Translations under genes and position numbers: made by a program
IMG/VR virus record: IMGVR_UViG_3300009594_000009
Location: 1-64,000 of that record
Source: a virus
Length of the DNA: 64,000 nucleotides
Direction: 5' to 3' (one strand)
Notes under the pieces: model-generated
The model's input: the letters and a program-made list of their open reading frames with translations, nothing else
Databases searched by the model: none
Told to the model about the DNA's origin: nothing
Part shown: positions 3,522-61,641 of the stretch, in pieces
How the letters are laid out: each line of letters begins with the position of its first letter
How positions within the stretch are numbered: position 1 is the first letter of the stretch

Positions 3522-3768
3522 TCAAATCGGACAGGTGCCACCTTCGCACTCGTCTTTCTTCTTCTCACCTTCCTCATCCTCTTCTTCGGGCGGCGGTTCC
3601 TTGCCTTGCTGGATGGCAAACAATTGATTGAGCATCTTGCCCAATTCCTTGTTCCATTTCCGGCTCTGCGTATAGTCACGAAGTTTTTGGGCCTGTTCTT
3701 TGTCCGACTCTGAAGTTCTTCCCAGATATCGTCCACGAGTCTACCTTTTTGCCCGAACCTGCCAACAT
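3522..3768 (-). pseudogene. Small acidic-tailed gene coupled to thyA, frameshifted
   Basis: ATG 3768 overlaps the thymidylate synthase stop as TGATG. The opening frame (MLAGSGKKVDSWT) soon stops. Coding character then moves through two other frames and ends in QKLRDYTQSRKWNKELG and a Glu/Lys-rich tail with GGTCPI at 3522. About 80 residues would result if two shifts were corrected. Function is not recognised. Decay and sequence error both remain possible. Confidence 0.5.
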
Positions 3769-5726
3769 CAAACGGCTACGGGGATTTTGATCTTCGGCTG
3801 GGGCTTATACCCGACTACCTCAAAACTGTCCATAGTGTAGGAGAAAATATCAAGAGCGGCCTTGATGACGAGTTTTGGAGAATCTGGTTTCGGCCTTCGC
3901 AGGTATTCCTCCACCGCTTCCATCTGGTTCAGATAGATGTGGCTATCCACCGTGGAGTGAACAAACTCATGCGGCGTGTAGCCGGTTTGTTGAGCCAGCA
4001 TCATCGTCAAGGCCGAGTAAAAAGCGATGTTGAAAGGCACCCCAATCGGGAAGTCACACGACCGCTGGGTGAGCATCCCGCTGAGCCTGCCTTTATCCGG
4101 GTCCACAAATACCTGATACGTGTAATGACAATTGTGATTTAGAAAGTTATTGGCGGTATAAGTATGCGAACCTTCTACCGACAAATTGTGTACCTCTGGC
4201 TCGGAGACCTCACCGATGAAACCCTCCGTCACGTCCTCCACTCTAATCCAAAGCAAATCTCCTTCCTTGATATATGGAATGCCTGTATGAAATTGCCTTC
4301 GTGACTCGCTCTTTTTAACGATCAGCGTATAAAGATCACACTGATTGACAAGCCTTCCTTGGATGATTTTCTTCTTTTTCCGCTTGAAGTGGTAGATCGC
4401 CGCTCTTTCTCCCAACTTCCAGAATATGGACTGCATCCCAAGGGCCAATTTGGGCGAGGTAGTGGTAAAATGCCAATACCTTCCATTAGAACAACCATCA
4501 CTGTCGTAGTATCCTTCCACCAGCTTCTCCAGACACTCAATCGGGGCATCCAGTATCCATCTAGGAATGTCTTTGTTGTGTGCCCGATGTCCTAGAGTTC
4601 TGAGTATGGGTGCCCATTTTTCACTGCGAGTCTCAAAAGTCGAACAGGACTCCCCTTCACCTTTCTTGCGAGAGATTTTTATGGACTTTCGGATCATCGG
4701 CAAAATATATTCTTCGTCTTCTGCCGCTATAGCAAAAGATATACGAGAGCTATTTTTAGAGGCCCATCCATCGCCCAAGAAATAACCCATCATGTACCAA
4801 TCATCCGGCGACGAAATCTCAAAATCGGTCTTTTTGGCATACTGATTGACGTAGATGTGTTCTTTGAATACCGGCAGCTTGCTCTCGGTGTTTAACCGCA
4901 TAGCCACATAATCACCCTTCTGCACTGTGCTGGCCGGAACATACCCTCGCCCACGAACTAAGAAAGGATGATTTGGAGTACATCTCACTGGAAGACCACG
5001 ACTATAAGCCATAGTCAACAAAATCCCCTTGCCTGAATAGGGCGTAATAAAATTCTCGGTCACTGACTGCCAGCCACCAGATGACCAAACTAGATCACCC
5101 GCCTTCACATCTTCAATAACTCGATATCCTTTATCGGTTTGCACAAAAGTGCCCTTCACAAAACACGGCGGGAGACGCATTTTATCGGTATCCCTCGGAT
5201 TCCACAGAGAAAAAAGGATGCGGCGACAATCCGGCTGCGTCTTGATGCGGTTGACCATCCAGGCGAGTTGGTCGAACCCTCCAAAGCCATACATACTATA
5301 AGGTAAATCGCCAAAATCAGTACATGGGTCTACCTCGGTGTCTTGGGTAAACTCCCTGCCGCCGATGCCGTTGCCATAGAAGCCATTGAAATGTCGAAGT
5401 TGGAAACCATAGACAGGACCGAAAGAACCAGGAGCGTAGCCATGTTTCTTCTCGAAAGCCTCATCTACCCAGGGCGTCCAGATATTGACTCCCAATTTTT
5501 GCAAATCCTTGTTGTTGGTACTGCCACTTAGAAACCAAAGTAGTTCAGCGAAAACGGCCTTGTGCGGAATCTCACGTCCGGTGAGTAGAGGGAAGCCCTC
5601 GGAGATGTTGTAGCGGGATAGAATACCGAAAACGGCTATAGTCCCGACGCCGGTTCGATTGGTCTTCTTGACGCCGGTGCTAATGATCTGGTGCAGGGCG
5701 TCGTCATAGGGTCGAAGCAAGTACAT
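3768..5726 (-). CDS. thyA: Thymidylate synthase interrupted by an intein
   Basis: 652 residues as translated. Residues 1-187 and 533-652 together give a ThyA of about 307 residues that methylates dUMP to dTMP. The N-extein has NRTGVGTI and the C-extein has RSCDFPIGVPFN and HIYLNQ. The intein sits between LPP and CHY, so its +1 nucleophile is the ThyA catalytic cysteine, and the enzyme is inactive until splicing. Together with dCMP deaminase, dNMP kinase and carbamoyltransferase it suggests phage-driven dTTP supply. No lesion is seen. Confidence 0.95.
   Translation of the reverse strand: MYLLRPYDDALHQIISTGVKKTNRTGVGTIAVFGILSRYNISEGFPLLTGREIPHKAVFAELLWFLSGSTNNKDLQKLGVNIWTPWVDEAFEKKHGYAPGSFGPVYGFQLRHFNGFYGNGIGGREFTQDTEVDPCTDFGDLPYSMYGFGGFDQLAWMVNRIKTQPDCRRILFSLWNPRDTDKMRLPPCFVKGTFVQTDKGYRVIEDVKAGDLVWSSGGWQSVTENFITPYSGKGILLTMAYSRGLPVRCTPNHPFLVRGRGYVPASTVQKGDYVAMRLNTESKLPVFKEHIYVNQYAKKTDFEISSPDDWYMMGYFLGDGWASKNSSRISFAIAAEDEEYILPMIRKSIKISRKKGEGESCSTFETRSEKWAPILRTLGHRAHNKDIPRWILDAPIECLEKLVEGYYDSDGCSNGRYWHFTTTSPKLALGMQSIFWKLGERAAIYHFKRKKKKIIQGRLVNQCDLYTLIVKKSESRRQFHTGIPYIKEGDLLWIRVEDVTEGFIGEVSEPEVHNLSVEGSHTYTANNFLNHNCHYTYQVFVDPDKGRLSGMLTQRSCDFPIGVPFNIAFYSALTMMLAQQTGYTPHEFVHSTVDSHIYLNQMEAVEEYLRRPKPDSPKLVIKAALDIFSYTMDSFEVVGYKPQPKIKIPVAV
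4131..5165 (-). other. Intein with LAGLIDADG homing endonuclease in ThyA
   Basis: About 345 residues. It begins at Cys188 (CFVKGTFVQT), has a block-B-like CTPNHPFLV, and ends in NFLNHN before the extein Cys. The two LAGLIDADG-like helices are MGYFLGDGWAS and LVEGYYDSDG, each keeping an acidic residue, so the endonuclease may be active. The block G ending HN followed by Cys is canonical for a class 1 intein. Confidence 0.93.
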
Positions 5727-29621: not shown

Positions 29622-30651
29622 GTTCTATATCCTTTGTAAACGAATTCTCTACTTGTATTACTCCATAGTAATCCCCGGATAGTAGATGCTTCCCGTATCT
29701 GGAAAGAATCGAAGTCCTTGGTTTAGCTGTTGGAGCAAAAGCAACATACGGGCAGTAATAGTACCCGCTCTCCATAGTTGGCCTATTGAACCCCATCACC
29801 AACTGAGTTTCGGGGAAATAGTCCTCGGAGATAGCATAGAGATGCCACTTGTTGGCAAGGTGCCCAACGTACCCCAACCTGTTCTCGGCGAAGGTGACGC
29901 CAGCAAAATCCTTGAGGTCAAAATGGCGGGCCAGATGTGTCGCCAGCCCTTCAGAGGTCACGATCCAATTAGCAGATGTGGTTATACGGCTGCCAATAGC
30001 ATTGCTAACCGCTAAAACAGCGTCGGCGAGCTTGGCTGCGTTTAACCAACTGTGTTCGGCTTGGAATGTAGCTGTGCTGGATATATCAGAAATGACTTCC
30101 TTGTTTAACTCTCGAATAATGTCTGTAGCCATCCTACCGGTCATCTCGGCTTCGTTATCAATGCCATTTGCACTAAGAGCATATTTACTGGCATCCTCGT
30201 TGTAGTAAAACTTGCCGAACCACTGACGCAGCCCGGTTTCGGATTCTTCGATATTGTCTACTTCCACCAGAGGAAAACCAGTAGCCAGCAATCTAGTCCT
30301 GGCCTGGATTGGATGTGGTACTATGAGACCGTATTTATTCGGGTGATAAAACTCATCGGTCGGACTGACAAGCGTTTGAACTGAAGCAATCTTGTAAGCT
30401 ATGAACTGGTTAGGTGAAAATACCCTCCTAGCCAACGGGATACTTAGGCGTCTGAACAGGTTGTTGAACGCCTTGTCGGATTCGTCGGCCTCGGCTAGAG
30501 GAAACTTCTCATTATAGAGCCGCTGGTTCTCTAGGATCATGGCGATGACAGCACGGTGAAAGTCATCCTTAATACCCTTGAGCAAACCAATCTGATCCCA
30601 CTTCTTATAAGCCTCTAGCTTCGGCTTCTTTTGCTTGTCGAAATCTAGCAT
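29542..30651 (-). CDS. Major capsid protein (T4 gp23-like)
   Basis: 369 residues from ATG 30651. The frame is open further up, but this start sits after AAAAGGTCAG. RMATDIIRELNKEVISDI matches the gp23 helix before the central domain. TSANWIVTSEGLATHL and LVMGFNRPTMESGYYYCPYV, then SRYGKHLLSGDYYGV, match the gp23 end (GYFYAPYV...RYG). Shorter than T4 gp23. Forms the head shell. Intact. Confidence 0.72.
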   Translation of the reverse strand: MLDFDKQKKPKLEAYKKWDQIGLLKGIKDDFHRAVIAMILENQRLYNEKFPLAEADESDKAFNNLFRRLSIPLARRVFSPNQFIAYKIASVQTLVSPTDEFYHPNKYGLIVPHPIQARTRLLATGFPLVEVDNIEESETGLRQWFGKFYYNEDASKYALSANGIDNEAEMTGRMATDIIRELNKEVISDISSTATFQAEHSWLNAAKLADAVLAVSNAIGSRITTSANWIVTSEGLATHLARHFDLKDFAGVTFAENRLGYVGHLANKWHLYAISEDYFPETQLVMGFNRPTMESGYYYCPYVAFAPTAKPRTSILSRYGKHLLSGDYYGVIQVENSFTKDIEHEPERTYPDSTQQLLVGEGEADTAGE

Positions 30652-41418: not shown

Positions 41419-42234
41419 CTAATAGAACAACAGAGTATTTATGACGATATCTACTATTTCCTCTATGGGCTGCGATGGTGCGTACCATTCATCCCACTCA
41501 GACGGAACGATCTCCCATTTGTGGCCCTTGGTGGGCGATTTGACATCATAACCCCAACACCTAATTAAGCCCTTTTCTTTGTCCATGAGTATGTCTATGT
41601 TGAATTGCTCCACCCTGGTAGCACTAGGGGATTCCACTCCATGACCTTTCATGTCGAAGTATATTTTGTAGTAGTTCTCATTGATCTGTTTGATTTTCGG
41701 TGAAAACATGCAGTAAGACGGAAAGTGTAGTCGAGATTGAGAGAATAGGTGCCGCACCAGGGTATGAAAGTCTTCGTAATCTGATTTAGGCGAATCAATC
41801 ATTTGCTTTCCTATGTCCTTGACAGCCTCGTATACTTCCACTGCTCTAGGCCCCTCATCTGTGTTGTAGTTTCTCTCATTCAGCGAAATGATTTTTTTGC
41901 AAATCCAACGCATTTCACCCTGTAGGTCCGTAATCTTCCTGCGTATCGTTATTTTGAACGATCCCAGCGGAGATATGTCTAATAAGAGGGCACCTATGTC
42001 CTGCCCCCACTCTAGTGTGTCGGCCCATCTCTTTTTGGCTTTGTGAGAGTTGATAGACGGCATCCGAAGCATTTCATCAAACATCTCTTGGACATCGAAA
42101 GGATTAAGGGGAGTTTGATCGTCATCGGTGTATTTTTTGCAATCGTCCTTTTGCTTGCTGAAGCCGAAGTCCGCCCACTCCTTTACACACGGATGGTCAC
42201 GCCGCTTTATCCATTGTTGAAAGTTCTTGTACAT
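41419..42234 (-). CDS. Hypothetical protein with FQQWI N-terminus
   Basis: 271 residues starting MYKNFQQWIKRRDHP. The central part is helical, the last third beta-rich (YYKIYFDMKGHG). Not recognised. The motif again suggests a virion-associated protein. Divergent from pyrB. Confidence 0.65.
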   Translation of the reverse strand: MYKNFQQWIKRRDHPCVKEWADFGFSKQKDDCKKYTDDDQTPLNPFDVQEMFDEMLRMPSINSHKAKKRWADTLEWGQDIGALLLDISPLGSFKITIRRKITDLQGEMRWICKKIISLNERNYNTDEGPRAVEVYEAVKDIGKQMIDSPKSDYEDFHTLVRHLFSQSRLHFPSYCMFSPKIKQINENYYKIYFDMKGHGVESPSATRVEQFNIDILMDKEKGLIRCWGYDVKSPTKGHKWEIVPSEWDEWYAPSQPIEEIVDIVINTLLFY

Positions 42235-42301
42235 ATTGCTGTTGATATTTAGTTACGCCATACTTAAAATAGACCTAATTTACACTTTAGGAGGCCGGGC
42301 C

Positions 42302-43168
42302 GTGGATATATTGTCTTCCTCTCAGTTTAATCTCCATTTTCTAGATCAGCTTTTCAAGCTCACGAAAAGCATAAGGTCTAACTTTTCCAAGGACGAACCG
42401 TGGTTCATGCGTGAATGCCATTACTTCACGGCCTTGAAGGGATGTACTATAGCCACGGTTTTCGATGAGCCTAGCACCAGAACCAAGTCTTCTTTTGAAG
42501 CAGCCGTCATGCGATTGGGCGGCTCGTTTTTTAGTGTCGATACCATGACTTCATCCATGAGGAAGGGGGAGTCATTCGAGGACACCATCAAGACGATCTC
42601 GCAATATGCCGATGTCATTGTGATCCGGCACCCGAATATAGGGGCGGCACAGACGGCGGCTAGGGTCTCTGACGTTCCGGTTATCAATGCCGGGGATGGT
42701 GCCGGTGAGCATCCTACCCAGGCGTTGATTGATTTGTTTACGATTATTGACGAAATTCCCAACTTCGAGCGGTTACTATTCCTGGGCGACATCCAATATG
42801 CCAGAACCATCAATTCGCTAGCATTGCTGGTACGTCGGGTCTTCGAGGACTGTCAGATTCATGAAATAGACATAAGAAACGGACCTTCCGAGACTTTGGA
42901 AAAGTTGCCGAACCTTCTAAGGGCGGCTGATGTCGTGTATATGACCCGTCTCCAAAGCGAGAGATGTGGAACGGACGGCGGCGAAGAATGCAGGAACCTC
43001 AATCCGCTGCCGCACATGAAGGAAAAATCAATCCTGTTGCACCCCCTACCCAGAACCAGGGAACTTAGTATCGAGTGCGATGCTGACCCTCGTGCCGCTT
43101 ACTGGAGGCAGGTAAAAAATGGCCTCTATCTTCGTATGGCACTTCTGAAAATAATTCTGCGTCCGTAA
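42302..43168 (+). CDS. pyrB: Aspartate carbamoyltransferase (PyrB-like)
   Basis: 288 residues from GTG 42302, 7 bases after a strong AGGAGG. Carbamoyl-phosphate loop DEPSTRT (55-61), KGES (88-91), RHP (109-111), GEHPTQALIDL (135-145), and LLHPLPRTREL near the end all fit ATCase rather than ornithine transcarbamoylase. Catalyses the first committed step of pyrimidine synthesis. Slightly shorter than the bacterial catalytic chain (~310). No regulatory PyrI is seen. Lacks the FKxWL motif of its neighbours. Confidence 0.9.
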   Translation: MDILSSSQFNLHFLDQLFKLTKSIRSNFSKDEPWFMRECHYFTALKGCTIATVFDEPSTRTKSSFEAAVMRLGGSFFSVDTMTSSMRKGESFEDTIKTISQYADVIVIRHPNIGAAQTAARVSDVPVINAGDGAGEHPTQALIDLFTIIDEIPNFERLLFLGDIQYARTINSLALLVRRVFEDCQIHEIDIRNGPSETLEKLPNLLRAADVVYMTRLQSERCGTDGGEECRNLNPLPHMKEKSILLHPLPRTRELSIECDADPRAAYWRQVKNGLYLRMALLKIILRP

Positions 43169-50803: not shown

Positions 50804-51514
50804 GAGTGAATCTGGGAAATCATTGATAGGAATTCTTCTTCAAGAAGTCCGCTCTTCGCCGTATTGATATCTATGCGAACCCATTGCAGGTTATCGGCGG
50901 CGTGTGTACCTCCTCTGCTAAGTGGCACTCTATGATCTATGGAAGTATCGACACCTAACTTGATAGGTTGACCGGAATACACGCAGGTCTGATTTTGTTT
51001 TTCAAACAGAATTAGACCTATCTCTTTCCACCGATAACGTGTTTCCAAGCAAACGTAGGATATCGCCTTTAGTACGCACCGATAGCATCTGCCGATTTTA
51101 TCCTGTCGTTCGCCGCTGCACATGTGGCAAAGACCATTTTCGATTCGTCCTTTTTCTAGCCTCTTGCTGGTTGGTTTTATTTTTCTCTCGGCACGTTTCA
51201 CATAAGGTGTTCCCTGAAGAAACATTAAAGACAGAACCGCAATTTACACATTTGTGTTCGGTTGCCAAACGCTCTAGAAGTTGCTGTTTGCAGTGGGTTA
51301 CTCTAGTTAGGCCAGCCTCACGGCAGACAGCACAGAGCTTAAAAGGATAGCCGTTGGGCTTCCTATCACAATGAGGCGTCCCGTATACCGTGCAATTAAC
51401 CGGTTTCTTGTTCCTGATCTTCCTTGTTTTTTCGGCGTGCTTTCCACGGCACCTCTCACAGGTTATGAAGCGTGAATCCTCAACTTCTACTTGTCGGCAG
51501 GTAGAGTAAATCAT
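50785..51514 (-). pseudogene. Zinc-ribbon HNH endonuclease split by a frameshift
   Basis: The upstream frame (51514 down) has three zinc-ribbon pairs (ITCERCRGKH, KLCAVCREAG, HKCVNCGSVF, LCETCREK). At an A5 run near 51155 coding passes to the second frame, which has GLCHMCSGERQDKIGRCYRC and the HNH core CVYSGQPIKLG, IDHRVPLSRGG, NLQWV. Joined length is about 240 residues. Same zinc-ribbon plus HNH layout as 5728-6299, and also broken between the two parts. Confidence 0.7.
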
Positions 51515-51549
51515 GTTAGCATTTTACCAGGGCAGCCAAGTAAATGCTA

Positions 51550-51578
51550 TTGACGAATTTTGCGTGACATCGTACTAT
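51550..51578 (+). promoter_or_regulatory. Sigma-70-type promoter for the tRNA transcript
   Basis: TTGACG (51550) and TACTAT (51573) with 17-base spacing, pointing at the tRNA-like and tRNA-Leu genes. About 85 bases of leader follow before the first tRNA-like element. Confidence 0.7.
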
Positions 51579-51665
51579 ATAGGAGTAGCAGTCCAACATC
51601 ACCAACATGCTCGACTAAACACAGTAGAACAACCCCAATGCTGTATAAACACAATGCGGGGATAA

Positions 51666-51730
51666 GGCCAGGAGAGCTAAGGCGGTGGTGCAACGATCTC
51701 CGGATCGAAAAGGGCTAAAGAAAACTGGCC
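51666..51730 (+). other. tRNA-like relic
   Basis: GGCCAG pairs with CTGGCC at the ends. A D-arm-like GCTAAGGCGGTGGTGC and a hairpin CGAT/ATCG with CTCCGG loop follow, but the T-arm is missing. Could be a decayed tRNA (an Arg CCG anticodon is possible) on the same transcript as tRNA-Leu. Confidence 0.3.
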
Positions 51731-51735
51731 TTAAT

Positions 51736-51818
51736 GCCCTTGTGGTGGAATCAGGCAGACACGCATGGCTTAGGACCATGTACCGTAAGGCGTGCAGGTT
51801 CGAGTCCTGCCAAGGGCA
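51736..51818 (+). tRNA. tRNA-Leu (UAG anticodon)
   Basis: Full class II cloverleaf: acceptor GCCCTTG/CAAGGGC, anticodon arm CATGG-CTTAGGA-CCATG (anticodon TAG), long variable arm, T-arm GCAGG-TTCGAGT-CCTGC, discriminator A. CCA is not encoded. Followed by a terminator. Reads CUN leucine codons. Confidence 0.93.
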
Positions 51819-51822
51819 CTTT

Positions 51823-51854
51823 AGAAACCCACGGTATCTTTACCGTGGGTTTCT
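51823..51854 (+). terminator. Intrinsic terminator after tRNA-Leu
   Basis: 14-bp stem AGAAACCCACGGTA with loop TCTT, then TTTT. Confidence 0.88.
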
Positions 51855-51933
51855 TTTTGGTGTTGCTCTTTACATTTAATTCAAATTTCGATACCATTGT
51901 GCAACTTCAGTTTTCTATGGAGGAACCGAACTG

Positions 51934-52185
51934 ATGGCTCTCGAACAACGAGTTAAGGAAGTCATTGGGGAATGCTTTCAAGTTGATTGGAGGAACATCA
52001 AGAACACGGATAGGTTCAAGGAAGACCTGGGGGCAGACTCACTCGATCTCACCGACCTGTCTTTCCGGCTCGAAAGGAAATTCGAGCATGTCAAGAAACT
52101 CAACATAACTAAGGCGGAAGAGGAATGCTTTGTAAGCGTACAAGATATCCTCAACTATCTGCTCAATGAAGAATTAGAACCATGA
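51934..52185 (+). CDS. Acyl carrier protein
   Basis: 83 residues. DLGADSLDLTDLSFRLERKF holds the DSL phosphopantetheine serine (Ser36). Size and helical layout match bacterial ACP. Host fatty-acid or acyltransfer pathways use it. GGAGGAA lies upstream. Its stop overlaps the next start as ATGA, tying it to a membrane protein. Confidence 0.9.
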   Translation: MALEQRVKEVIGECFQVDWRNIKNTDRFKEDLGADSLDLTDLSFRLERKFEHVKKLNITKAEEECFVSVQDILNYLLNEELEP

Positions 52186-52904
52186 CCATCGAACCTCTCA
52201 TTGTACTCTTCACCCTGGGCAGTCCTCTCTTCTGGCTACTCTTTCTAGTGGTGAGCAGTTGTATCATCTGGGCCATTGAAGAAAACAGATGGTATTGGGC
52301 CGGATTCTCGGTCCTCGCTTTCCTGGCAGCCTGCGTGTTTCTTGGTGACACTGGCCTCGTCAAAACGCTCATTGAGCGGCCCTACATGATCGTACCCTAC
52401 GCAGGTGGATTCATCGGCCTGGGCATCACATGGGGCTTTATCAAATGGTTTGTCTTCCTGCACAAGCGGCGTCGGAAGTACGAAGATGCCAAGTTAGCTT
52501 GGCTTCGGGAGGAGGGCTTGCTAGATGCTAAGGAAATCCCCGAAGAATTGAAGAAGAAGTGGACACTCTACCTGCTCAACAGCGATGAATGGTCCCGTCC
52601 AAAAAAGCCGTTTGTCCCGGTTCACAGGTGGGATGCCAAACTCTCCAAGGACATCAATGACAGGGTTCTTACCGTGCGGCCCAGAGCATGGGAGAACAAG
52701 ACCAAGATTATCACCTGGATGGCGTTCTGGCCCTGGTCGCTGTTCTGGTATTTGCTCGGCGATCTACTTTACGATCTGTGGAACCGCATCTACGCTTGGC
52801 TCGGCGATCTTTTCGAGCAGATGTCGAAGCATGTGTTCAGGAATGTTGCCGCCGACGTGGTAGAGATCAAGAAGCCGAAGCCGGAATCAGAAGAAAGAAA
52901 CTGA
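52182..52904 (+). CDS. Membrane protein coupled to ACP
   Basis: 240 residues. Hydrophobic segments near 8-30, 38-54 and 66-95 and a Trp-rich one near 173-190 (WMAFWPWSLFWYLLGDLLY), with a charged loop between. No family is recognised. The ATGA coupling with ACP suggests joint function, such as membrane-linked acyl transfer (inference). Confidence 0.7.
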   Translation: MTIEPLIVLFTLGSPLFWLLFLVVSSCIIWAIEENRWYWAGFSVLAFLAACVFLGDTGLVKTLIERPYMIVPYAGGFIGLGITWGFIKWFVFLHKRRRKYEDAKLAWLREEGLLDAKEIPEELKKKWTLYLLNSDEWSRPKKPFVPVHRWDAKLSKDINDRVLTVRPRAWENKTKIITWMAFWPWSLFWYLLGDLLYDLWNRIYAWLGDLFEQMSKHVFRNVAADVVEIKKPKPESEERN

Positions 52905-52928
52905 CAAGTACGCACCTAGTCCGCATCA

Positions 52929-52956
52929 TTGACGAAATGATGCGGACTTCTATAAT
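52929..52956 (+). promoter_or_regulatory. Sigma-70-type promoter of RNase P RNA
   Basis: TTGACG (52929-52934) and a perfect TATAAT (52951-52956), 16-base spacing. A start 6-7 bases on falls at the first bases of the P1 helix. Confidence 0.85.
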
Positions 52957-52960
52957 GGAC

Positions 52961-53228
52961 TTTGGTTCGGAGCCTACGCTGCTGCGGGATCGCCAACCGT
53001 GGTAGAGGAAAGTCGGGACATCACTGCTTAACGTGGGAGACCGAGTAGCTGGTACGCCAGCGAGGGTCGTCTGCACCACGGAGGATGCAAGCCAAATAGA
53101 CTGGAGCCGGTGAGCAGGGCTGTGAAGGTCTGGTAGGTGCAGGCGTGTCGTAATAGACTGCCCACAGGTGACAAGTGCCTGTGAGATAAATGTAGGCATA
53201 AACCAGAATCCCGCTTACTCGAACCAAA
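52961..53228 (+). ncRNA. rnpB: RNase P RNA
   Basis: About 268 bases. P1: TTTGGTTCG at the 5' end pairs with CGAACCAAA at the 3' end. Bacterial signatures occur in order: AGAGGAAAGTCGGGACA (GAGGAAAGTC, 5' P4 region), GCAAGCCAAATAGACTGG, GAGATAAATG, and CAGAATCCCGCTTAC (3' P4 strand and CAGAA...GCTTA end). Shorter than typical bacterial RNA (~350-400), so some peripheral helices are reduced. It would cleave tRNA 5' leaders with the host protein subunit. No protein subunit gene is seen here. Confidence 0.88.
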
Positions 53229-53260
53229 CGCCGGGCCTGAAAAGGCCCGGCGTTTTGTTT
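53227..53260 (+). terminator. Intrinsic terminator of RNase P RNA
   Basis: 11-bp stem AACGCCGGGCC with loop TGAAAA, followed by TTTTGTTTTT. It begins as the P1 helix ends. Confidence 0.93.
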
Positions 53261-53279
53261 TTCCAGCCATACATATGGC

Positions 53280-54647
53280 ATGGACAAGCCTATTAAGCTC
53301 ATCATCTTTGATCTAGACGGCGTGCTGGTCGATGCCAAAGAGATACACTACCAAGCTCTGAACAAGGCGTTAGAGAAACATGGTTCTCGCTTTGTTATAC
53401 AGCGTAACGAGCATTTCTTCATCTACGACGGCCTCCCGACACGCAAGAAACTGCAACTCCTCACGAGTAATAAGGGTCTTCCAGCCGAAACTTACGACCA
53501 AATCTGGCATGACAAGCAAGACCACACCATCGAGGTCATCAACTCGTCACTGAAGATCGATCATCGCCTCTGCGATGTATTGAAAGCTCTGAGGAAGAAG
53601 TACCGAATTTACGTAGCTAGCAATTCGATTAGAGAGACGATGAAGCTGATGCTGATCCGTACCGGGTTGATTGAGTACGTAGACTATTTCATCTCCAACG
53701 AAGATGTCGTTCACCCTAAACCTCATTCTGAGATTTATCTTCGTTGCATGGTACATGCTGGCGTGAACCCAAAAGAGTGCCTCGTGGTAGAGGACTCTTC
53801 CCAGGGCCGCAAGGCTGCACTGGAGGCGGGGGCACACTTGTTCGGCATAGAGCGGATGGATGAGGTTACTTACGAGAACATTATGCAACAGATAATCAGC
53901 GTAGATTCCAATAGACAGAAGTGGAGAAGCGATAAGCTCAATGTGCTAATTCCTATGGCCGGGGCCGGAAAGAGATTTCAAGCGGCTGGTTATACGTTCC
54001 CCAAGCCTCTAATCGACGTGCTTGGCAAACCGATGATTCAACTGGTGGTTGAGAATCTGGGGCTGGAGGGCAAATTTATTTTCATCGTGCAGCAGGAGCA
54101 TTACGATCAGTACAACCTCAAACAAATGTTGAATCTGATTCGCCCAGGCTGCGAAGTCGTCTGCACTCAGGGTTTGACAGAGGGTGCGGCTTGTACGACG
54201 TTACTAGCTAAGCACTTGATAGACAGCGACCACCACCTGCTAATAGCTAATTCAGATCAATTTATCGATTGGGATAGCAGCGAATTCATGTATTCCATGT
54301 GTGCCTCTGATATAGACGGCGGTATATTGACTTTCAATGCCACACATCCCAAATGGAGCTATGTAAAACTAGACGACAACGGATTTGTGTGTCAGGTAGC
54401 AGAGAAGATACCTATCTCAAACATAGCAAATGTAGGAATATACTATTGGAACAAAGGTTCTGATTACGTCAAGTACGCTGAACAAATGATAGAAAAAGAT
54501 GTCAGGACCAATAACGAGTTCTACGTCGCCCCGGTGTACAACGAGGCTATATCCGATGGCAAGAAAATTAGACACTACCAAATCAGAGAGATGTGGGGGC
54601 TGGGCACCCCGGAAGACCTAGAACACTACTTGAGGAACCACAAGTGA
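53280..54647 (+). CDS. HAD phosphatase fused to sugar nucleotidyltransferase
   Basis: 455 residues. Residues 1-210: HAD fold with IIFDLDGVLVDAKEIHY, VASNSIRE, VHPKPHSEIY and LVVEDSSQG. Residues 220-455: NTP-transferase with VLIPMAGAGKRFQAAG, FPKPLIDVLGKPM, LLIANSDQFIDWD and MWGLGTPEDL. Such fusions sit in surface polysaccharide loci and activate a sugar phosphate. Heads a plus-strand sugar operon. Confidence 0.85.
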   Translation: MDKPIKLIIFDLDGVLVDAKEIHYQALNKALEKHGSRFVIQRNEHFFIYDGLPTRKKLQLLTSNKGLPAETYDQIWHDKQDHTIEVINSSLKIDHRLCDVLKALRKKYRIYVASNSIRETMKLMLIRTGLIEYVDYFISNEDVVHPKPHSEIYLRCMVHAGVNPKECLVVEDSSQGRKAALEAGAHLFGIERMDEVTYENIMQQIISVDSNRQKWRSDKLNVLIPMAGAGKRFQAAGYTFPKPLIDVLGKPMIQLVVENLGLEGKFIFIVQQEHYDQYNLKQMLNLIRPGCEVVCTQGLTEGAACTTLLAKHLIDSDHHLLIANSDQFIDWDSSEFMYSMCASDIDGGILTFNATHPKWSYVKLDDNGFVCQVAEKIPISNIANVGIYYWNKGSDYVKYAEQMIEKDVRTNNEFYVAPVYNEAISDGKKIRHYQIREMWGLGTPEDLEHYLRNHK

Positions 54648-55339
54648 ATCCAGTTTACAAGGAATTGGTAAAATCCGGTATCTATGAGGTTGCTGATCCA
54701 GAAATTAACAACCTCAAATTCACAGACCACAAATATCCTTGGTCTATATCCAATGACGAGTTTAACTTTGTTTTTAGCCATATCAAACAGATGGGTTACA
54801 AGGCTGGATACGACTTGGCTACTGGTTGTGGAATATCAGCATTAGCTATGGGGCTGGCTCTCAAGGATAACGGCGGGCGACTTGTGACTATGGACGCATA
54901 TGTGGAGGAGAACAGTGGCGAACTATACTACGAGGTTGAATCGTTCCCCAAGAGCGTCGGCTACAAGCGATTTTTGAAGCTAATCAAGCGTTTTAGGCTA
55001 AGCGGCGTTGTCCGAGCGGAGGTAGGGTGTAGCCCACAACATACCAGTGATCGTCTTGGCAGGACGTATGACCTCTCAACAGACAAACTAGATGTGGTGT
55101 TTATAGACGCCATGCATGATGACAAGAGTTTGGTAGAGGACTTCGAGGCAACATTCCCTTACCTAGATAGCAAATTTACGTTGTTCATACACGACGCTCA
55201 CAGCTTTAGTATGAGGATCATACATCAAGTGATGACGACGGTAGATAACCGGGGAAAGGGGAGATGCAAGTTAGTAGTTCCAGCCGGTAAAGGATGCAAT
55301 CTGATTTACATAACCAACGATGACTTGGTAGTTCTGTGA
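54644..55339 (+). CDS. Class I methyltransferase-like protein
   Basis: 231 residues from GTG 54644, which overlaps the upstream stop (GTGA). GYDLATGCGISALAMGLAL is motif I. LVTMDAY, KLDVVFIDAMHDD and FTLFIHDAHS follow, as in Methyltransf_24. Probably modifies a sugar in this operon. Upstream in-frame ATG 54593 has no site of its own. Confidence 0.72.
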   Translation: MNPVYKELVKSGIYEVADPEINNLKFTDHKYPWSISNDEFNFVFSHIKQMGYKAGYDLATGCGISALAMGLALKDNGGRLVTMDAYVEENSGELYYEVESFPKSVGYKRFLKLIKRFRLSGVVRAEVGCSPQHTSDRLGRTYDLSTDKLDVVFIDAMHDDKSLVEDFEATFPYLDSKFTLFIHDAHSFSMRIIHQVMTTVDNRGKGRCKLVVPAGKGCNLIYITNDDLVVL

Positions 55340-55348
55340 TGCGTAGCT

Positions 55349-56140
55349 ATGGATACATCTATTATCATACAAGGGCCACTACACCCGCTTACCATAGGAA
55401 CAATTCCATTCTACAAAAAGTTCGGCGAGGTAATTGTTTCGTGCTGGGAAAACGATAGTCCAGAACTACTAAATTCATTGCCGGGCGACATCAAATTGGT
55501 GGTCAGCCCATATCCAAGACGACCGATGATAAGCCGGTCCAACATACATCTTCAAACTATTTCTACATTGAATGGCCTGCTGTGCAGCACTGGCGAGATG
55601 TGTATCAAGGTTCGGTCGGACGAGTCATATAGCGATCTCAGTTGTTTTATAGACGCCATGAGAGAACATCCAGATAAGGTATGTTGCGGCAACGTATATT
55701 TCCGCAAGGAATACCCATTGCACATGAGCGATCATCTGTTTGGAACTGCTAAATGGCGGATGGTCCAGGCTCTTGAGTGGGCTAAGGAGCATTTGGAAAC
55801 CAACAAGCCGTTTACGCCCTGGCCGGAAGTAATTTTGACAACAGCGTTTTTGACTACGTTCGGTGTGTTTAGTAGAAGTTTCGATGTGCCTAATGGTTTG
55901 TATAAACGTGGGCTGTGTAATAGACGGACAAACACGCCTGATGAGGCTCTATTGTTATATCGCCACTTCTTTTTGGTCCCAATGAGGATGCTTGGCAAGT
56001 TTATCTGTAGAGTTCACACCAACGATGAAGGCCGGGTTTGGCTAGATAGGGAAGATCGCAACATTTTGGAATGGAATGGATCGAGCATATACAATTCGAT
56101 TGACGAACTACTGCCCAAACGAAGTAGCCTAAAAATGTAG
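55349..56140 (+). CDS. WavE-like LPS glycosyltransferase
   Basis: 263 residues. SIIIQGPLHP, EVIVSCWENDSP, and KVRSDESYSDL (the RxD motif) fit the WavE lipopolysaccharide family. Third gene of the HAD-NTase/methyltransferase operon. Its stop lies in the following terminator. Confidence 0.75.
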   Translation: MDTSIIIQGPLHPLTIGTIPFYKKFGEVIVSCWENDSPELLNSLPGDIKLVVSPYPRRPMISRSNIHLQTISTLNGLLCSTGEMCIKVRSDESYSDLSCFIDAMREHPDKVCCGNVYFRKEYPLHMSDHLFGTAKWRMVQALEWAKEHLETNKPFTPWPEVILTTAFLTTFGVFSRSFDVPNGLYKRGLCNRRTNTPDEALLLYRHFFLVPMRMLGKFICRVHTNDEGRVWLDREDRNILEWNGSSIYNSIDELLPKRSSLKM

Positions 56141-60653: not shown

Positions 60654-61641
60654 AATCCAACACAAGTCGCTGGCGATTGGAATTGGCCCTGATGACTACA
60701 AACCCCATGCTCTCTATAGCTTGGCGAGTCCAGCGTGACGACTCAGTGTTCAAAAACACCCAGCCGTTGTTAGCCAGACAACGGCTGGTGTCCTTTAGAA
60801 ACTTATTTTGTGGTATTTTAGATACGTCGTTAGCTATGAAGGCACCTACTTCGCCTTTCCTGCCCCTGCCAGGAAATCTGTTGTTGAAGTATTCTTGATA
60901 ATCGGCATACAACAGCATATGTAGTTCACACCACCGTTGAACCACGTTTCTAATATACTTGTCATACAGAGCCATTGAAGCCTGGACGACATTTCCTGCT
61001 AATTCTCGGAAGGAGTTTGCTTCGTGGAGATGGTAGACGTAAAGTGGTTTGTCTATATGCTCTACCCAGCCTTTTATGTAGGTACGACATAATAAGTCTT
61101 GATCGTCCAGCACTATGTCCTGATGCCCCCCGATACGTTCGTAGAAAGGCCGTCGCCAAGCTCGTATGTGATTTGGGCAGAACCAGATTTGACTCAGTGT
61201 AATAGGGCTGGCTTTGAAAGCAACGGTTTCAAGTAGCCGCTGTCCCTTGTATTGTACGTCCCGGTATTTCCAGCCAAACGAGTCGCTGAAACGATGGGGT
61301 TTGCCGTCTCGGACATTACACGAATTGGAATACACGAAGTCTACATGGGGCTTTTGGAAAGCCAAAACAACTTCCTCAAGTGCATTGGGGAACAATTCAT
61401 CGTCGTGGTCGGCCTCTACCAGAATGTCTCCGGTAGCCTGGGAGCAGGCGAATTTCTTCAAAGCACCAATCCGCCCTAGCTCAGATGGAATAATTTTGGC
61501 GTTGTGCCACTCCCCTTCCAAAGCGATGCCATTGGGCACAATGATCCACTCGAAGTCCTGAAAAGCCTGATCTTTGAGAGATGCTTCTAGTCTGCGAAGA
61601 TGCTGGGGGTTGTGAGTCGGAGTGAAAACGCTCAATCTCAT
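60640..61641 (-). CDS. Family 2 glycosyltransferase
   Basis: 333 residues. LSVFTPTHNPQHLRRLEASL opens the GT2 fold, ILVEADHDDELFPNAL gives the DxD-type DHDD, and IVLDDQDLLCRTYIKG the ED-type motif. The last ~90 residues (FIANDVSKIPQNKFLKDT) may be an extra domain. Coupled to the broken nucleotidyltransferase gene. Confidence 0.85.
   Translation of the reverse strand: MRLSVFTPTHNPQHLRRLEASLKDQAFQDFEWIIVPNGIALEGEWHNAKIIPSELGRIGALKKFACSQATGDILVEADHDDELFPNALEEVVLAFQKPHVDFVYSNSCNVRDGKPHRFSDSFGWKYRDVQYKGQRLLETVAFKASPITLSQIWFCPNHIRAWRRPFYERIGGHQDIVLDDQDLLCRTYIKGWVEHIDKPLYVYHLHEANSFRELAGNVVQASMALYDKYIRNVVQRWCELHMLLYADYQEYFNNRFPGRGRKGEVGAFIANDVSKIPQNKFLKDTSRCLANNGWVFLNTESSRWTRQAIESMGFVVIRANSNRQRLVLDFTKQ

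Follow-up and report, generated by a model that had tools for sequence, protein, structure and literature searches.

Positions 52961–53228 of the window, the whole 64,000-nucleotide stretch of viral DNA analysed here, encode an RNase P RNA, and the genome that carries it is that of a phage. RNase P RNA, a catalytic RNA of ancient origin, trims transfer RNAs; its gene is regarded as cellular and single-copy, and serves as a check on the completeness of cellular genomes. The original prediction, a phage RNase P RNA with its own promoter and terminator at 52929–53260, held, on the evidence of an Rfam match, covariation across ten phages, a capsid gene and sequence identity in two records; its coordinates were refined, the RNA proper lying within them.

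Identity and architecture of the window RNA

In an Rfam search, RF00010 (RNaseP_bact_a) matched positions 52962–53231 over the full length of the model at 51.2 bits, with E-values of 4.9e-15 (401 bases searched) and 1.8e-16 (for the record). This is significant, yet below the curated gathering cut-off of 100 bits; a standard scan at that threshold gave no match, and the RNA is therefore missed by routine annotation. In the same search, 3 of the 11 matching control genomes scored under it as well. Direct reading found GAGGAAAGTC, GCAAGCCAAATAG and CAGAATCCCGCTTA within the RNA in that order, and CR-I, CR-IV and CR-V are likewise present in order. The predicted signatures and perfect end pairing thus both held. 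The features are as follows.

51736–51818 (+), tRNA-Leu gene (RF00005 55.6 bits, ARAGORN); no encoded CCA, followed by CT
52929–52956 (+), sigma-70-type promoter TTGACG-N16-TATAAT, 11 of 12 consensus positions
52961–53228 (+), RNase P RNA, class A-like with reduced specificity domain, 268 nt from P1 to P1 (RF00010, ten-phage covariation)
52961–52969 (+), P1 5′ strand TTTGGTTCG, nine perfect pairs with CGAACCAAA at 53220–53228
52972–52976 (+), P2 5′ strand GCCTA, partner 53193–53197; 100% paired, 5/5 pairs covary
52979–53005 (+), P3 hairpin; 52979–52987 pairs with 52997–53005 in the MFE fold
53005–53018 (+), CR-I GAGGAAAGTC and P4 5′ strand with bulged U, partner 53209–53216
53019–53022 (+), P5 5′ strand CATC, partner 53084–53087; 100% paired, 3/4 covary
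53024–53030 (+), P6 5′ strand CTGCTTA, pseudoknot with L17 TGAGCAG at 53111–53117
53032–53036 (+), P7 5′ strand CGTGG, partner 53076–53080; 100% paired, 3/5 covary
53037–53075 (+), 39-nt mini-insert replacing P8–P14 (sequence, MFE fold)
53098–53134 (+), P15/16–P17 with L17 (P6 3′ strand) and L15
53164–53182 (+), P18 hairpin ACAGG/CCTGT (MFE fold); variable length, unscored in the alignment
53184–53192 (+), J18/2 (CR-IV) AGATAAATG, positions invariant or nearly so across ten phages
53204–53217 (+), CR-V CAGAATCCCGCTTA and P4 3′ strand
53226–53262 (+), strong intrinsic terminator, 13-bp GC-rich stem and T-rich tail TTTTGTTTTT (stem and T-run 53226–53255)

The perfect pairing of the two P1 strands sets the length of the RNA at 268 nt. 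The promoter, with its −35-type TTGACG at 52929–52934, a 16-nt spacer and TATAAT at 52951–52956, is the top-scoring of four sites in 51400–53500. Helices P1–P7 and P15–P18 are kept, including P4 (AAG.CGGGA with UCCCG.CUU, one bulged U, crossing P2) and the 7-bp P6 pseudoknot between J5/7 and L17, which is a class A-specific element. L15 contributes GGT at 53132–53134, the CCA-binding loop; the L15 GGU of RNase P RNA binds RCCA. The test for a specificity domain (P8–P14, J11/12–J12/11) was not met, the space between the P7 strands being taken up by a GACC/GGTC plus GCTGG/CCAGC hairpin with a UACG loop; relatives have inserts of 20–40 nt, or larger ones, at this place. Much of P8–P14 is missing from some known RNase P RNAs too, so we regard the window RNA as a reduced variant rather than a non-member. 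Because P8–P14 of bacterial RNase P contacts the tRNA T-loop, its loss removes that contact and activity might be weak or altered.

Selection for this structure was shown by aligning ten related phage RNAs (from genomes or contigs of 436, 343, 735, 184, 225 and 363 kb and others) with MAFFT and scoring 44 pairs of a hand-named structure; P18 and the outer P15 pair were excluded because MAFFT misaligns them. Standard pairs filled 97.3% of cells, against 72.6% in shuffles and 30–44% when partners were slid by 1–3 columns. Thirty-one of the 44 pairs change on both sides, the P4 and P6 pseudoknots included, and the covariation score was 0.703 against 0.189 ± 0.022 in shuffles, none of 500 of which reached it. 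Naming the structure from the window sequence inflates the percentage paired, but does not favor double changes to such an extent. By helix, all nine P1 pairs change on both sides; P4 is 98.8% paired with 4/8 pairs covarying, P6 100% with 3/7, and P17 (100%) and P15 (96.7%) also covary, while P3 differs in length among the phages. The original prediction would have been refuted had P4 been unable to form; it forms, with compensatory changes across phages. Conserved landmarks are GAGGAA in J3/4, the bulged U of P4, the L15 GGU, AGAUAAAUG in J18/2 and ACAGAAU... Single-sequence MFE folding was uninformative as a test of the pseudoknotted core, which it did not recover; the energy was modestly below that of shuffles (z −2.1).

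That the RNA resides in a phage genome is likewise shown. The window's source record is 65,083 bp, and all 64,000 window bases are identical to positions 83338–19339 of IMGVR_UViG_3300017388_000001 (435,946 bp). Window proteins match the phage major head protein, UvsX, DnaB helicase and thymidylate synthase families (PHROG), and the larger contig has a T4-type capsid gene, Gp23, at 53168–53674, about 23 kb from the RNA at 30108–30377. The same contig encodes 62 tRNA genes, a tmRNA and two PolyA_pol (CCA-adding enzyme) loci.

Several other features of this genome were recorded in passing. Nearly all of 63 ARAGORN tRNA genes of the 436-kb contig (loci L054–L075) lack an encoded CCA, the discriminator base mostly being followed by CT (N73-C-T); this conservation of CT is unexplained. 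The thymidylate synthase gene at window positions 3768–5726 (−) contains an in-frame intein that includes a LAGLIDADG endonuclease (residues ~187 to 532 hold the Pfam Intein_splicing and LAGLIDADG_3 matches), and an aspartate/ornithine carbamoyltransferase-like phage gene lies at 42227–43168 (+; Pfam OTCace_N, 7.9e-41). Directly downstream of the RNase P RNA, 53280–56140 (+) encodes a HAD phosphatase–nucleotidyltransferase fusion, a methyltransferase and a third ORF without a Pfam match; these possibly represent a sugar-nucleotide or surface-modification operon, which they resemble.

Distribution, proximity to tRNA genes and the RnpA partner

A set of 2.9 million viral contigs was searched with seven pattern scans; together with one blastn match these yielded 63 distinct sequences, which sit mostly in large viral contigs. 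The claim that such genes are rare in phages therefore failed: with more than 60 distinct copies, many under the Rfam cut-off, they are not rare in large phages. Capsid or terminase was found in 33 of the 66 records tested (E ≤ 0.001), many of the others being fragments. The 735-kb (LR756501/3), 642-kb (LR756502) and 634-kb (LR745206) huge phages carry the RNA, as does the cultured Stenotrophomonas phage DLP6, in which it is unannotated, lies at about 105,780–106,022 of the record and ends a few nucleotides before a tRNA-Arg. Even at E ≤ 1, Rfam still misses the copies in the 735-kb phage and DLP6, and blastn with three single RNAs gave no matches among known phages.

The catalytic-core strings and L15 GGU are retained in nearly all 63 sequences, with GGT upstream of J18/2 in every one. 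P4 occurs in 16 P4b and 7 P4a combinations; inclusion required CR-I and a pairing P4 with at least four of five P4b bases, so the P4 tally is partly selected. In the last pattern scan, 38 new contigs met the P4 requirement and 6 failed. By comparison, 110 bacterial RNAs found with the same 3′ pattern nearly all have GGAAAGTC with CCGGA/TCCGG and are longer than the phage RNAs, and none of 84,980 prokaryote genomes contained a match to the phage-type P6/P7 motif.

Some candidates were rejected. Five matches to the pattern GGTGAGC..CCC..GGGTAG.GGC (L090–L094) were due to chance, and L095, L100, L102, L124, L128 and L130, from another pattern scan, to chance or unrelated sequence. A short-consensus blastn against phages gave Rheinheimera, Enterocloster, Listeria and Lactococcus matches at E 0.05–7 inside annotated genes; Cellulophaga was matched as well, and DLP6 alone stood out. 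Five full-size, bacterial-type IMG/VR RNAs scoring above 260 bits (G005, G010, G020, G023, G037) were excluded as support because no capsid or terminase was matched where tested, and they may be host DNA.

Near-bacterial-size RNAs of 168–277 bits were also seen in phage contigs having capsid and/or terminase (G019 61039–61391, G013 73526–73802, G012 68571–68937); these could be more recent acquisitions from hosts. TAnnTTTG-type (Bacteroidota-like) promoter sequences lie upstream of the RNase P RNA in L053, L116, L123, L134 and L138, hinting at hosts in several phyla. One 3,053-bp contig from a Roizmanbacteria MAG (L187) carries a compact, phage-type RNase P RNA with a tRNA-like sequence behind it; the contig probably belongs to a phage and ended up in a bacterial genome bin.

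The smallest forms span only ~152 nt from P1 to P1 (G025, 328 kb; G043, 243 kb; G014, G027, G036, G038). P7 and everything above it are absent, so that no specificity domain remains, and the 6–8-nt loop closing P5 doubles as the P6 5′ strand. Within this group 95.4% of cells are paired and 12 of 36 pairs are double-changed, compared with 0–1 in slid versions. Most of these RNAs begin right after a sigma-70-like promoter and are followed by tRNA genes; a TTGAC-N-TATAAT-type promoter precedes the RNA in G025, G027, G036, G038 and G043, and TTGACA-N17-TATAAT examples directly upstream are analogous to the window promoter. On the bolder reading given below, they would be the smallest natural bacterial-type RNase P RNAs that we know of.

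Linkage to tRNA genes is frequent. In at least 20 of the 63 sequences a tRNA starts no more than 60 nt downstream from the P4 3′ strand, and in at least 33 one lies within 500 nt on either side (lower bounds, as many loci are truncated); by a rough estimate assuming one tRNA every several kb, fewer than about one case within 60 nt would be expected by chance. In relatives the RNA often lies directly before, or between, tRNA genes. CCA-adding-enzyme domains were found in 8 of 19 records searched, one of them under the curated cut-off.

RnpA was not found in 51 of the 54 records searched, the window's phage among them (no PF00825 match in the 436-kb phage). The exceptions are LR756502 (642 kb), LR745206 (634 kb) and a 476-kb contig, whose proteins each score above the TIGR00188 cut-off and bear the RnpA signature, as in VDRNRIKRLM. 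Some phages thus encode both RNase P subunits, as shown by sequence; activity is inferred. In LR745206, rnpA and a clpP-like gene adjoin a gene for a 681-aa outer-membrane beta-barrel protein (L263 3458–5500, −; OMP_b-brl_3, TonB-receptor-like).

Proposed function and rival explanations

The window RNA very likely functions as an active RNase P ribozyme belonging to the phage, working with host RnpA to mature phage tRNAs. With no expression or cleavage data, its activity is untested, and it is by inference only that the RNA is transcribed, is catalytic, partners with RnpA, acts specifically on tRNAs and benefits the phage. In the proposed mechanism, the ~436-kb T4-like phage would express the reduced RNA from its own promoter; the RNA would adopt the normal catalytic domain (P1–P4, P5–P7, P15–P18, L15 GGU) and bind host RnpA, or phage RnpA where encoded. 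Pre-tRNAs would be recognized through the acceptor stem and the L15–CCA contact, with reduced T-loop contact; 5′ leaders would be cut from the phage's own pre-tRNAs, the tRNA-Leu at 51736–51818 being a likely substrate, and phage CCA-adding enzymes would then finish the 3′ ends. Such an RNA may sustain tRNA maturation once the host's RNA synthesis has been shut down or if host RNase P is in short supply. Where the RNA gene directly adjoins a tRNA, the RNA's own 3′ end would be released by RNase P.

The original prediction had offered three roles. The 62 tRNA genes and the common adjacency of RNA and tRNA among relatives agree with processing of phage tRNAs, and takeover of the host protein subunit is in line with the lack of RnpA in the window's phage, three relatives having their own; both remain inferences. 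Replacement of a shut-off host enzyme stays an untested possibility.

A bolder reading, which taken as a single joint claim we favor only by a narrow margin, is that large tailed phages possess an RNase P lineage of their own, widespread and evolving independently, made up of catalytic-domain-only RNAs (down to ~152 nt), sometimes with their own RnpA, and set within tRNA arrays in such a way that RNase P cutting at the following tRNA liberates the RNA's 3′ end, and that together with phage tRNAs and CCA-adding enzymes these constitute a virus-encoded tRNA maturation pathway.

The main rival is a decoy, in which an idle RNase P RNA mimic sequesters host RnpA and reduces host RNase P, favoring phage products. 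Supporting this, most such phages lack RnpA, and the RnpA-binding domain is kept while the substrate-specificity domain is trimmed. We consider it very unlikely, however, because a decoy needs none of the L15 GGU, the P4 bulged U or the J3/4 and J18/2 residues, all of which are conserved; moreover, three phages have their own RnpA, and these phages hold many tRNAs requiring 5′ maturation, with 20 of 63 RNAs adjoining tRNAs. Similarly improbable is a non-tRNA role, i.e., processing or regulation of phage mRNA or tmRNA with tRNA processing secondary. RNase P substrates do include pre-tmRNA and phage regulatory RNAs (PMC4919922), and the 436-kb phage has a tmRNA, but relatives' RNAs are linked to tRNA genes and CCA-adding enzymes co-occur. 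A passenger or pseudogene, i.e., a host rnpB caught by chance and short because it is decaying, would suit the reduced length, and the near-bacterial-size RNAs in some phage contigs (G019, 276.7 bits) fit acquisition from hosts. This is strongly disfavored and very unlikely: compensatory covariation is strong in every core helix, decay is incompatible with 97% pairing, many different phages have the same reduced architecture, and promoter and terminator are intact. Lastly, misclassified bacterial (e.g., CPR) DNA, suggested by the small genomes and reduced RNase P RNAs of CPR, some without P12 (PMC8172020), is all but excluded by the capsid, UvsX, DnaB and thymidylate synthase matches in the window, Gp23 in the contig, the presence of the RNA in curated huge phages (LR756501, LR756502, LR745206) and cultured DLP6, and the lack of any match to the phage-type P6/P7 motif among the 84,980 prokaryote genomes.

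Significance and relation to known systems

With the ribozyme reading preferred, it appears, by inference, that large phages have taken a core step of translation into their own hands. The presence of RNase P RNA, in three cases with RnpA, in phages brings a core translation ribozyme into the viral gene pool and suggests how tRNA-rich giant phages may mature their tRNAs following host shut-off. The phage RNAs are natural experiments on the minimal RNA, with P4 covarying and the specificity domain hairpin-sized or absent, and are small candidates for structure and mechanism studies. The Rfam cut-off conceals many of their genes, and cultured DLP6 makes their function testable now.

No prior report of phage RNase P was found in the open-access literature searched, most subscription papers and bioRxiv preprints being outside its scope. 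The huge phages of Al-Shayeb 2020 (735, 642 and 634 kb) were described as having tRNAs, synthetases and a CCA-adding enzyme (PMC7162821); RNase P, rnpA and rnpB are not mentioned in the main text. Phage RNase P RNA is also unreported in the main texts of a 2026 jumbo-phage review (PMC13282480) and the DLP6 genome paper (PMC5349666), and that of a study of circularised megaphages reports only tRNAs and tmRNA (PMC8172020).

With bacterial class A RNase P RNA (RF00010, rnpB) the phage RNA shares P1–P7, P15–P18, the L15 GGU, CR-I/IV/V and the P4 and P6 pseudoknots; it differs in being a phage gene, in having P8–P14 cut to a ~40-nt hairpin and in a P4 sequence free to covary. The core from GGAA..TC to J18/2 spans 77–295 nt in phages (median ~142) and 203–389 nt in the bacteria compared, barring two short outliers. 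Reduction has precedents in cells. The minimal RNase P RNA of the archaeon Pyrobaculum likewise lacks nearly the whole specificity domain (PMC4919922), whereas the phage RNA is bacterial-type (P15–L15, P6), viral, and usually without its protein subunit in the genome. Those of CPR and Mycoplasma fermentans are likewise missing P12 and other helices, and the CPR forms are detectable only at a lowered Rfam threshold (PMC8172020); theirs are cellular genes, however, and the phage forms shrink to ~152 nt. Theta ribozymes, which lie beside phage tRNAs (PMC10879173), are likewise tied to tRNA maturation, and some of their phages have CCA-adding enzymes; these ribozymes are self-cleaving, HDV-like and act at tRNA 3′ ends, whereas the phage RNase P RNA is predicted to act in trans, at 5′ ends.
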